64,000 nt of DNA from an uncultured Pseudomonadota bacterium. Lineage in GTDB: Bacteria > Pseudomonadota > Gammaproteobacteria > Methylococcales > Methylomonadaceae. The stretch's first letter is position 1, and each line of letters opens with the position of its first letter. The translations under genes and the position numbers were made by a program. Below are positions 58,732 to 64,000 of this stretch, piece by piece. The stretch is taken from the NCBI GenBank assembly GCA_903918375.1, contig CAIXED010000065.1:16262-80261 (forward strand), written 5' to 3'. The notes below the pieces were generated by a model. The model saw nothing but the letters and a program-made list of their open reading frames with translations. It ran no database searches and was not told the origin of the DNA.

Positions 58732-59502
58732 ATGTTTATCGACTCACACTGCCATCTGGATCGTATCGACCTTGCACCGTATAACGGTGAATTTGCTAAA
58801 TTCGTCACTGCCGCAAACGCTCAGCAAATCGAGCATATGCTATGCATCGCGATTGATTTGGAATCTTATCCAGCGATGTTAGATTTAGTAACACCGTATG
58901 ACAACATTTCTATGTCGGTCGGCGTTCATCCCAATGTCACCGAAGGAAAAGAACCCAGTGTCGATGAATTACTGGCATTGGCTAACAATCCAAAAGTGAT
59001 TGCAATTGGTGAAACCGGCTTGGATTATTTCCACAGCAGTGGCGATTTGGAATGGCAAAAACAACGCTTTAGAAACCATATCAGCGTCGCCAAAACCCTG
59101 AATAAACCCTTGATTATTCACACCCGCGAAGCAGGCCATGATTCTTTGGATATTTTGGTAGAGCAGGGCGCTGATCAAGTCGGTGGCATCATCCATTGTT
59201 TTACCGAAGATTGGGCTTATGCTGAAAAAGCGCTGGATTTGAATTTTTATATCTCTTTTTCAGGGATTGTAACCTTTAAAAATGCCGCTGCGATTCAAGA
59301 AGTCGCCAAAAAAGTCCCTGCCGACCGTTTTTTAATCGAAACCGATTCGCCTTATCTAGCGCCGATTCCTTTTCGCGGTAAGCCGAACTATCCGCTGTAT
59401 GTGCGCCATGTTGCTGAGAAATTGGCGGAACTGCGTGAAACCAGTCTTGAACAGATTGCCCAGCAATCCACCGATAATTTTTATCGTTTATTTGCAAAAT
59501 GA
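58732..59502 (+). CDS. TatD-family metal-dependent hydrolase
   Basis: This 256-residue protein is of the TatD/YcfH family, nucleases or phosphodiesterases with a TIM-barrel metal site. Motifs are 'MFIDSHCHLDRIDLAPY', 'AIGETGLDYFHSSGDLEWQKQRF', 'PLIIHTREAGHDSLDIL', 'GGIIHCFTEDW' and 'FLIETDSPYLAPIPFRGKPNYP'. It resembles YcfH of the holB operon, with which it shares position. The physiological substrate is not known. Confidence 0.92.
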   Translation: MFIDSHCHLDRIDLAPYNGEFAKFVTAANAQQIEHMLCIAIDLESYPAMLDLVTPYDNISMSVGVHPNVTEGKEPSVDELLALANNPKVIAIGETGLDYFHSSGDLEWQKQRFRNHISVAKTLNKPLIIHTREAGHDSLDILVEQGADQVGGIIHCFTEDWAYAEKALDLNFYISFSGIVTFKNAAAIQEVAKKVPADRFLIETDSPYLAPIPFRGKPNYPLYVRHVAEKLAELRETSLEQIAQQSTDNFYRLFAK

Positions 59503-59600
59503 AGTTGGAGTGAAGGCCAGAGCTTTATCAGTGAATTAACTCAAGTGATTGGAATTTGATTTTGTGATATCTCATGGTTTGATTGGGTTTGATTATCTTG

Positions 59601-59673
59601 TTTCGACCCGTTGCTGTCTATTGCCTAACGTGCTTCAATGACAGCAATTTGGCCAATTACCGACGATTATTAC
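59601..59673 (+). repeat. Dispersed intergenic repeat, copy 1
   Basis: TTTCGACCCGTTGC...TTCAATGACAGCAATTTGGCC... resembles the copy at 62440-62509 over about 70 bp. The two lie on either side of the orphan gene and HipBA. Confidence 0.6.
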
Positions 59674-59675
59674 TT

Positions 59676-60299
59676 ATGAATACATTCTCACTGTCTTATC
59701 TTCATAAAGCGCTCATCGAAAGAAATGCTTTTATCTATCATGGAGCTGGTGTTGCTAAAGGTGTTGGAAACGTATCGACTAATGCTATTCCGTTTCTTGA
59801 TCGATTGCGAAACGTAATTACGCAGGATCTAGAAGTCTGTTGTTCAACGGTAAAATTTGGCGATAGCGAGTTAAATTTGGATTTCTGGGGGAGGATAGGG
59901 CTAATACTTTGGCCTAGGAGTCATAATTCAATTACCTTGGTTTCACCGATAGATGCGGGAACAATTCCTGACCCGAATAACTTTGGAAGACGCCAGATTA
60001 CACGACTACCAATTACTTCCGACGCACTTGTGAATAGCATAGACAGCCGCCCCCCGCAGACAGCAAACGAATGGTGTGTTCTTGACTATGACGTTATCGG
60101 GATATTTGTCGAACCTAAAATTCAGTATGTAGAAAATGGCGATCTTCACGATGTCGAATTGATGGATGTTTTTCAGAACTTCCCAAGTATGAGGGTCTTC
60201 GCGTTCAATAATGGTCTACTTCGAGAAGTCCTGCCACCTGGAAATTGGGGTAGTTTAGTCTCAATTTCGGATTTGTATCCATACGACGATAAGGCATAA
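59676..60299 (+). CDS. Hypothetical protein, accessory
   Basis: This protein of about 207 residues ('MNTFSLSYLHKALIERNAFIYHGAGVAKGVGNVSTNAIPFLDRL') is not recognised. It has no obvious signal peptide, membrane helix or catalytic motif. It is probably a soluble alpha/beta protein ('FGDSELNLDFWGRIGLILWP', 'YDVIGIFVEPKIQYVENGDLHDVELMDVFQ'). The track begins at 59583, but ATG 59676 is immediately after the repeat copy and gives a more natural start. It has no partner on either side and lies among dispersed repeats, which suggests acquisition. Confidence 0.55.
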   Translation: MNTFSLSYLHKALIERNAFIYHGAGVAKGVGNVSTNAIPFLDRLRNVITQDLEVCCSTVKFGDSELNLDFWGRIGLILWPRSHNSITLVSPIDAGTIPDPNNFGRRQITRLPITSDALVNSIDSRPPQTANEWCVLDYDVIGIFVEPKIQYVENGDLHDVELMDVFQNFPSMRVFAFNNGLLREVLPPGNWGSLVSISDLYPYDDKA

Positions 60300-60420
60300 C
60301 CCACGCTTAGCCCGACTTCGCTACGCTACAGGGTTTGTTCTAGGTTAAGTTAAACGGCTGCTTTCGGTTTTACTTCTGCTATACATTGAAATCTTTGAAT
60401 GTCGCAAACTGGCCGAAAGC
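60300..60420 (+). repeat. Dispersed intergenic repeats after the orphan gene
   Basis: The segment near 60300-60340 (CCACGCTTAGCCCGACTTCGCTACGCTACAGGG) belongs to a GTAGGGTGGG...type repeat like that at 39541. AAGTTAAACGGCT at 60347-60359 recurs exactly at 62323-62335. CTGCTTTCGG...GGCCGAAAGC (about 60358-60420) is another inverted unit. Confidence 0.5.
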
Positions 60421-62065: not shown

Positions 62066-62322
62066 GGTTGTTATTTAGCAATAAGAAAGTTTCTTTTAGT
62101 TGGAAAACACAGGAATGATAAAAAAGAAATGAATAGGTTGATGCCCTGTCAATTTGGCCTATTGTGTTTCACTCCCCATGTTACTGTTCCAAGGCTGAGT
62201 CTGACAGTAACACCAAAAATGTCAGCTTGAGTTTGCTGAAAAATAACAGTTTGTAACTGTTTGGAATAGTTTCAAACTGTTTCAAAGTTGGCGAGATTTT
62301 TGGATTAGGTTAATGCGTGTTG
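62066..62322 (+). repeat. Intergenic stretch with nested inverted repeats
   Basis: The gap between hipB and the cassette holds GTTACTGT...ACAGTAAC (62180-62187 and 62204-62211), AACAGTT-TGT-AACTGTT (62245-62261) and AGTTT-C-AAACT (62268-62278), with AACTGTTT recurring. No ORF is convincing here. It may be a repeat-derived element. Confidence 0.5.
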
Positions 62323-62612
62323 AAGTTAAACGGCTAATTGTGGTTTTTGGGTTGATGCGGGGTGGGACTAGTGAATGATTTGTCTAGTGTCTTAAGTGGG
62401 TTGTGAATGTTTTTGGGGTTTGTTAAATTGTAGGTCTGGTTTCGACCCGTTGCGGCCTGTCGTCTAAACTGATTCAATGGCGGCGATGAGTCCATTATCG
62501 GTCATTATTTTAGATCACCGAATAATTACAGAAGGATAACTTATATGCAAATCAATAAATTACCTTGTATGCAAACTTTTCTGGTACATATATAGAACTT
62601 TCTAATTACTAG
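62323..62612 (+). repeat. Dispersed repeat copies and cassette-proximal gap
   Basis: AAGTTAAACGGCT (62323-62335) matches 60347-60359, and 62440-62509 is copy 2 of the TTTCGACCCGTTGC repeat. The rest (62510-62612) contains a direct repeat TATGCAAA (62544-62551 and 62568-62575) and a possible promoter TTGTAT-18-TATATA at 62565-62594, pointing into the cassette. Confidence 0.5.
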
Positions 62613-63825
62613 TTAGCGCTAAAATGAATTCATATGCCAAATAATCGCAAAGATAGACTAAGTAAACAGCTTGGTGGTGAATGCCAAGCATGCGGATCTA
62701 CTGGCGTTCCTCTCGAGATCCACCACATTGTCCCTTTGTCTTCTGGTGGCACGGATGATGAAAGTAATCTCACTTTGTTATGTCCTAACTGCAATCGAAC
62801 TATCGCAAACCGTCAATTTACTGAAATTGAGTTTAATAATTACCTTTCGAGAATACTGGACAGCTCTAATGCGTTTCACGATATTCGCATGGAAGAGAGG
62901 CTGTCGAGTGAAAAACCATTTCGGGCGGATATTACAGCAAAGTCTCAAGATGGAAAAAGTTGGCTGATTGAGTGCAAAAATGCATCAGCATTTACCCCGG
63001 CTAGACTTCATCAGGCCATAAATCAAATCAAGGCGTATAAGGAGGCAACATCCTTCGATTACTACGTTCTTGCCTTTCCTGGCCTTTTGTCTGAAGAACA
63101 AAAGGCCGCACTTAGCTCCGATCAAATTGTTTATTGGGATGCACATGAATTGGCAGTACGTTTCCAAAACGAAATCAGGAATACTAGGCATTCCATATTT
63201 CAAATGCTCCTGTCCTCAATGGCTCCGTCTCCCAAAAAGACTACAGAGGAAGAATTTATAGAAAAGCTAAAGAGATGTCAGCCAGGTAAAGATTACTGGT
63301 CAGACTATCAAAAGCTTGTTGGTCAAATTTTAGAGCATTTATTTTGCCCGCCACTTGAAGCTCCGATTTCAGAATCTGCAGACCAAGATAAAATTAATCG
63401 TCGCGACTGGATACTCCCCAACTACTCTGATAAAGGATTTTGGAGTTTTCTAAGAATTAAATACTTGGCTGATTATATTGTTGTAGATGCTAAGAACTAC
63501 AAAGGGGCAATCTCAAAGAATCAAGTATTACAGATTGCAAATTACCTTAAAACTCATGGTGCCGGCATGTTCGCCATTATTGTTACAAGAGCAGGCGCAA
63601 ATAAAAGTGCCGACCTAACCATAAGAGAACAATGGATGGCTAACAAAAAAATGATACTGGTTTTGAATGATGAAGATATCAAGGTAATGCTTTTGGCAAA
63701 GTCGGCCGGCGGTGAACCTGAGAAAGTAATCGGGCAGGCTATTGAGCGATTTAGGCTATCGATGTGAATACAAATACGCTAACAATTGGCTCAAAGGGGC
63801 GCAAAGCGCGCCCCTTTGCTAGGTG
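62613..63825 (+). mobile_element. Integron-type gene cassette
   Basis: The 1213-bp unit runs from TTAGCG at 62613 to the G of GTTAAAC at 63825 and holds one plus-strand gene followed by an attC-like site. The key evidence is that the R'' box (CGCTAAC, 63777-63783) is the exact complement of GTTAGCG at the left junction (62612-62618), as expected when a cassette circle is inserted between G and TT. The 5' untranslated part is only 21 bp and the gap from stop to attC is 9 bp, also typical. No integrase gene is in the window. Confidence 0.8.
62634..63767 (+). CDS. HNH endonuclease with two PD-(D/E)xK-like nuclease domains
   Basis: This 377-residue protein is carried by the integron-type cassette. 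Domain 1 (about 13-60) is an HNH finger: 'CQACGSTGVPLEIHHIVPL...NLTLLCPNCN' with C17, C20, H30/H31, N45, C50, C53. Domain 2 (about 94-190) has 'FRADITAKSQDGKSWLIECKN' with D99, E113 and K115, a Mrr-like restriction-endonuclease fold. Domain 3 (about 225-377) has 'RRDWILPN' and 'ADYIVVDAKNYKGAI' with D258, D285 and K287, a second PD-(D/E)xK core. No methylase or ATPase is alongside. Such a stack suggests a DNA-targeting defence or element-associated enzyme, but its function is not known. Confidence 0.8.
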   Translation: MPNNRKDRLSKQLGGECQACGSTGVPLEIHHIVPLSSGGTDDESNLTLLCPNCNRTIANRQFTEIEFNNYLSRILDSSNAFHDIRMEERLSSEKPFRADITAKSQDGKSWLIECKNASAFTPARLHQAINQIKAYKEATSFDYYVLAFPGLLSEEQKAALSSDQIVYWDAHELAVRFQNEIRNTRHSIFQMLLSSMAPSPKKTTEEEFIEKLKRCQPGKDYWSDYQKLVGQILEHLFCPPLEAPISESADQDKINRRDWILPNYSDKGFWSFLRIKYLADYIVVDAKNYKGAISKNQVLQIANYLKTHGAGMFAIIVTRAGANKSADLTIREQWMANKKMILVLNDEDIKVMLLAKSAGGEPEKVIGQAIERFRLSM

Positions 63826-63831
63826 TTAAAC
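63777..63831 (+). other. attC: attC recombination site (59-base element)
   Basis: R'' CGCTAAC (63777-63783), then AATTGGCTC, then a 10-bp stem AAAGGGGCGC/GCGCCCCTTT with a 5-nt loop, then GCTAGGT, and R' GTTAAAC (63825-63831; consensus GTTRRRY). The layout, length of 55 bp and TAACAA...GTTA framing match integron attC sites. An IS256-type end starts immediately after R'. Confidence 0.85.
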
Positions 63832-64000
63832 GAGGGTGTCCTAGATTTTGTGTAAACGGAATTTAAATTATCGGCTCACCATCCGATCCTCAAATTGAAT
63901 AGTAAACCGATTTAGAGCGGCTTTCCAGTCACGCAATGGCATAGTCCATTTCTTACTAATATTCATCAACGCCAGATAAAATAATTTCATAACAGCCTCA
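63832..64000. mobile_element. IS256-family insertion sequence, one end
   Basis: GAGGGTGTCCTAGATTTTGTGTAAACGG (63833-63860) looks like an IS256-family terminal inverted repeat, followed by a transposase read inward on the minus strand. The remainder lies beyond the window. Confidence 0.75.
63868..64000 (-). CDS. IS256-family transposase, C-terminal end (partial)
   Basis: This frame is absent from the ORF track. On the minus strand it reads 'AVMKLFYLALMNISKKWTMPLRDWKAALNRFTIQFEDRMVSR' before a TAA stop at 63868. The 'NISKKWTMP..DW..ALN.F.I.F' pattern is typical of the C-terminus of IS256-family mutator-type transposases. The N-terminal DDE catalytic part lies beyond the window. The terminal repeat and stop position are consistent with an intact end. 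Confidence 0.8.
   Translation of the reverse strand, partial: EAVMKLFYLALMNISKKWTMPLRDWKAALNRFTIQFEDRMVSR

Follow-up and report, generated by a model that had tools for sequence, protein, structure and literature searches.

The window, that is, the whole stretch of 64,000 nucleotides that was analysed, carries near its right end an inserted integron cassette of 1213 bp (62613-63825, plus strand), the extent of which follows from its core-to-core geometry. The left core, GTTAGCG (62612-62618, plus strand), is an attI x attC hybrid with its crossover at G/TT, between 62612 and 62613. The cassette gene (62634-63767, plus strand) is followed by an attC of 55 bp (63777-63831, plus strand), with the R'' box CGCTAAC (63777-63783), a stem formed by AAAGGGGCGC and GCGCCCCTTT, and the R' box GTTAAAC (63825-63831). 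A first-pass annotation, made from the letters alone, had proposed this geometry, and left core, R'', attC and R' were all found at the bases it gave. It had also predicted that R'' would be complementary to the left core. The two are complementary at 7/7 bases, and when the left core is put in the R' position, where a circular cassette would have it, pairing extends over the R boxes. The same rule was observed at related loci described below: the three variable bases after GTTA match the R'' of the first cassette perfectly at 19 of 29 loci, including that of the window (shuffle mean 2.3, p < 1e-4). The region 62613-63825 is an integron cassette.

The attC was assessed with a covariance model, R1, built from 21 attCs of other genomes (alignment A1) with the window excluded; in A1, compensatory changes occur in five of six L-box pairs. 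Over the 64-kb window, R1 gave a single match, on the plus strand at 63777-63831 (25.6 bits, E 6.7e-4), which is exactly the site proposed earlier. The bottom-strand fold has an energy of -15.1 kcal/mol (z = -4.0), and none of 200 shuffles was as stable. The site had been called a textbook attC; it is real and strongly folded, but the conserved L-box T-A pair beside the extrahelical base, present in 20 of the 21 training sites, is absent, and its R1 score is among the lower ones of the family. Because this T-A pair is missing, the window attC is a degenerate member of the family rather than a textbook one. An Rfam scan returned only tRNAs and no attC family at gathering score.

The cassette gene encodes a protein of 377 aa, and its call as a nuclease stands, with Pfam matches to HNH (3.5e-15), Mrr_cat (1e-5) and an HSDR_N-like domain (4e-5). 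The HNH region occupies residues 17-59, a PD-(D/E)XK-like region the middle (82-146), and an Mrr-like region the C-terminus (about 210-353); an HNH domain together with two regions that are apparently of PD-(D/E)XK type makes an unusual triple-nuclease arrangement. The domains suggest a restriction-type enzyme. PADLOC matched the protein to PDC-M36A (4e-17), and its plasmid relatives carry the annotation "restriction endonuclease". Together these matches point to a nuclease of restriction or defence type, for which an action in defence is moderately probable. Among 37 genomes of the genus, no other copy of the gene was found except a weak HNH-only match, and a search of plasmid DNA with the cassette region gave no match.

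Directly in front of the cassette, a stretch of 174 bp (62442-62615) is identified by its homology as an attI site. Positions 1-176 of an nhmmer model of the repeat's left portion (LEFT) match it with E 1e-37, and a search of relatives with the upstream region revealed a repeat dispersed through the genus, running from 62442 to about 62616 and stopping exactly at the cassette border. Part A of this repeat (62442-62516, plus strand), beginning TCGACCCGTTGC... and delimited with the LEFT model, is the left end of an element and is not found beside IntI-linked attIs; its left end TCGACCC is the exact terminus at two other loci, L094 and L170. Part B (62517-62615, plus strand) is the attI itself, ending in ...CTAATTACTAG/TTA, where the slash marks the crossover, and is homologous to a segment lying about 35 bp upstream of intI at five loci of relatives (L087, L176, L178, L182 and L184; E 1e-14 to 1e-22). 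Part A was considered as a 5' remnant of intI and rejected, since no match to the N-terminus of the cognate IntI was seen when the two were compared by eye. The attI side of the locus is undamaged and has no intI.

The window attI almost certainly belongs to a family of dispersed elements that lack intI. The repeat gave 157 matches in 30 of the 37 genus genomes, with a maximum of 13 per genome, and across the order it occurs in 57 of 301 genomes and 13 of 50 genera, all within one family; Methylobacter sp. YRD-M1, which falls in a sister genus, also has a plasmid-borne copy of part B. Over 176 bp, up to ...CTAATTACTAG/TTA, 18 full copies can be aligned; beyond that point they diverge completely, with different cassettes following from copy to copy. 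Many copies are closed at the right by a second conserved stretch, GTTAAACGAGCAATTTC...TTGGCCGA, and in dozens of them the left matches end and the right matches begin at the same GTTA. At full-repeat loci, 76 of 77 R1 attC matches lie downstream on the same strand. The cargo is diverse: 83 ORFs match 40 Pfam families, none of which occurs in more than three ORFs. No fully empty element copy was found in the genus, the nearest to empty being one of 286 bp (L118).

These observations bear on how the cassette came to lie where it does. Cassette insertion at non-classical genomic sites (attG) is reported (Loot et al. 2024, as cited in PMC11023631), and the window resembles that case in holding a single cassette outside an integron, with no intI at the locus. 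A stray insertion of this kind, to which the upstream repeat would be irrelevant, is nevertheless highly improbable here: the target shares homology with the attI found next to intI in one specific IntI lineage and is not a non-classical site, and the same 176-bp site bears different cassettes at dozens of loci. There is hardly any doubt that the cassette was inserted by an integrase at an attI. The first-pass annotation had offered either a single insertion or an integron interrupted by an insertion sequence (IS). The cassette is indeed alone, with an IS at its right; the target, however, is itself the attI of a dispersed family, and the locus therefore represents no accidental secondary insertion and no leftover of a broken array. 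An interrupted large array is rejected because the upstream neighbour of the cassette is an attI rather than another attC.

At the right, the IS end (63832-64000, minus strand) begins immediately after R', a boundary set from 12 further occurrences of the same end elsewhere in the genome, most of them at contig ends. A Pfam search with the 43-aa stub that it encodes gave no match; the C-terminus of the stub presumably resembles those of IS256-type transposases. The right end of the window coincides with the end of the contig. The bases GTTAAAC (63825-63831, plus strand) serve both as R' and, according to the consensus of the corresponding model (RIGHT; GTTAAACGAGCAATTTC...), as the beginning of the right part of the element, and with the IS directly behind them and the contig ending there, they are all that is present of the right part, the remainder being cut off by the IS. 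About a dozen near-identical IS ends break many contigs of the draft genome (C8, C12, C18, C19, C49, C65, C71, C79 and C82), and the IS on C49 also truncates the cargo of another element. A RIGHT fragment on contig C69 was considered as the missing half and rejected: the bases next to the IS are not duplicated, and C69 has no homology to the tatD locus of the relative G043.

A search beyond position 64,000 had been advised; over the whole draft genome, R1 gave five matches, including the window site. An attI element on contig C31 contains one of them, and the best two form an array where contig C27 ends. These two C27 sites (L134, 7033-7100 and 7875-7934) are strong attCs, and the assembled part of the contig contains neither attI nor integrase. 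Within the cassette region, a single R1 match precedes the IS and the contig end, fewer than the two that define a CALIN, a cluster of attC sites without an integrase, by the default of IntegronFinder (PMC9024848). Compared with a complete integron, the window locus appears from its homology to have the attI and has no adjacent intI.

The integrase cognate to this attI was found in related Methylococcales. The proteins of this lineage are 462 aa long, of which roughly 145 aa form an unusual extension at the N-terminus, before the usual SAM-like domain; the integrase is intact in genome G006, in Candidatus Methylobacter oryzae and in a Methylovulum MAG, and broken in others. Complete copies with IntI, attI and attCs are present at L087, L176 and L178; there, part B lies about 35 bp upstream of the IntI start codon, the attCs are on the far side, and part A is absent. 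The earlier statement that the window has no IntI was borne out, and none over the cut-off was found in the whole draft genome, which is 99.8% complete. It is thus highly probable that the window strain has no integrase now; its genome either lost one or never had one. Several complete genomes with many loaded sites were also found to have no IntI, and a resident integrase is therefore not general.

Could the locus be the remnant of a once-complete chromosomal integron, its intI deleted or its array broken by the IS, that is, a decayed CALIN? The locus has an attI but no intI, an IS truncates its right side, and remnants of the cognate intI do occur in relatives (G013, G024, L182 and L184). 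Such decay would not, however, give all dispersed copies the same non-intI part A and left terminus in place of varied intI remnants. Moreover, the dispersed attIs are a lineage apart from the intI-linked ones, which form their own clade (support 1.0), and up to 13 sites occur in one genome. The same element with sharp ends is found at unrelated sites, and a close relative of the window genome lacks the whole insert. Decay of a local integron is thus quite unlikely, and an attI carried on a dispersed element is the preferred reading.

Three pieces make up the element: part A with 75 bp, the attI with about 100 bp, and at the right a part of 69 bp (GTTAAAC...GGCCGA, also written GTTAAACGAG...GGCCGA). 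The copies at L094 and L170, from two species, show 99.1% identity over element positions 2-772 (771 bp) and have unrelated flanks; their shared sequence has sharp ends, starting with CGACCC and ending with GGCCG. G020 and G042, relatives with 97% identity, differ in their inserts at the L020/L186 locus, although these are bounded by the same CGACCC and TTGGCCGA ends. A MITE or other non-autonomous transposon is expected to occur at unrelated sites in multiple copies whose ends are fixed, as is seen here, and the attI element is very likely mobile as a unit. The two ends show inverted similarity at 21 of 38 positions in the consensus, which is weak and not significant pair by pair; strong terminal inverted repeats were rejected, as tests on single elements did not support them. 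No consistent target-site duplication was seen at the copies compared, and no transposase for the element was found. Three tandem tyrosine recombinases (a RIT-like trio; L091, 7542-10808) lie on C31, a short way upstream of the other attI element of the genome; that element is flanked by near-identical direct repeats of 30 bp. This trio was rejected as the mover, being absent beside the other copies read.

A second element of the same kind, now decayed, lies to the left in the window (59490-60416). It begins with a further dispersed repeat, the U module (59490-59600, plus strand), followed by a part A (59603-59677, plus strand; LEFT model 1-74, E 3e-13) from which the attI, part B, has been deleted. 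Its gene (59676-60299, plus strand) is related to the cassette gene of the C31 attI element at L091 (28% identity, E 1e-17), and its right part (GTTAAACGG...TGGCCGA; 60349-60416, plus strand) was recognised by the RIGHT model (E 3e-10). Then come hipB/hipA-like genes and the loaded attI element. In the relative G043, 93.5% identical over the flank, tatD is followed by another gene, the whole insert is absent, and homology stops at 59493. Between the two elements, positions 62308-62347 are similar to the beginning of the element's right part (GTTAAACGGCT..TTNNGGTTTT), and a related copy is present on contig C79. At L163, L164, L173 and L090, the U module (113 bp) is found with no attI and is followed by other inserts starting at TTACGACCC; the hotspot family is thus wider than the attI elements.

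Turnover of cassettes was observed at orthologous loci (L033/L093, L034/L100/L031, L096/L121 and L088/L103), where the repeat and both flanks are conserved and the interior differs. The breakpoints of exchange lie at or near core sites, for example GTTAG/ATAGC versus GTTAG/CCGTC. In G006, which has an intact cognate IntI, the same 474-bp cassette, with 1 mismatch, is present at two scattered attIs 2 Mb apart; it occupies the first position at the attI at 1.72 Mb and lies behind another cassette at 3.78 Mb, cut exactly at the cores both times. These patterns suggest that cassettes are loaded by IntI acting in trans, which we consider likely. The exchange could instead have come about by homologous recombination or whole-island transfer, with the attI homology a mere fossil. 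Several exchange genomes (G020, G042, G023 and G049) have no IntI, the flanking repeats could support such recombination, and at one locus (L020 versus L186) the whole element content was swapped. Breakpoints at or near G/TT cores, and a G006 cassette bounded exactly by the cores, in different array positions and in a genome with intact IntI, argue against this account, which is unlikely.

Taken as a whole, the window locus is very probably a cassette inserted by IntI into an attI on a small, non-autonomous, dispersed element, and loaded in trans. An integron integrase would have inserted the cassette by attI x attC recombination at G/TT, into an attI riding on a small non-autonomous element that would have been copied, without an integrase gene, to many chromosomal places in the genus and family. 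An IntI encoded elsewhere, of the 462-aa lineage found in a few relatives, would load, unload and exchange cassettes in trans at all of these sites. With the integrase missing from the window genome, the site would be a stranded, loaded dock; the right end of the element has also been removed by the IS.

Similar arrangements are known in part. The present loci share with sedentary chromosomal integrons an attI with attCs, insertion at G/TT and cassettes on the same strand, but here many attI copies lack intI and mostly carry one to few cassettes each. Like CALINs, they hold cassettes without a neighbouring integrase; unlike CALINs, they keep a complete attI, usually have one to few cassettes (a single attC in the window), and have been multiplied as a precise element. 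In integron mobilization units, two MITEs flank fragments of resistance integrons; there too, integron parts are mobilised by small non-autonomous repeats, whereas in the present case one small element contains the attI and has been copied many times. In class 1/2 integrons, the Delta-attI-type cassettes inside the integron have a truncated attI in place of their attC (PMC12901181). They likewise place attI fragments away from their usual position by intI, but the attI described here is full, lies upstream and is dispersed through the chromosome. No report of dispersed attIs or of such integrons in these methanotrophs was found in the open literature, subscription papers being mostly outside the search.

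What distinguishes these loci from the familiar integron? In the usual description, an integron has a single integrase, a single attI and a single array. At these loci, the attI seems to have escaped from its integrase and multiplied while still being loadable. Because such docks are scattered in methane-oxidising bacteria, a cell would have many cassette-loading places instead of one. With moderate confidence, we propose a decentralised integron, in which many members of the family have a mobile attI at about ten sites in each genome and one integrase, resident or visiting, would load them all in trans. If so, each cassette would gain its own chromosomal neighbourhood instead of a slot in one array, and lone cassettes that annotation tools miss or call degraded integrons would be accounted for. 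The view of how cassettes reach chromosomes and are expressed there would then be changed.
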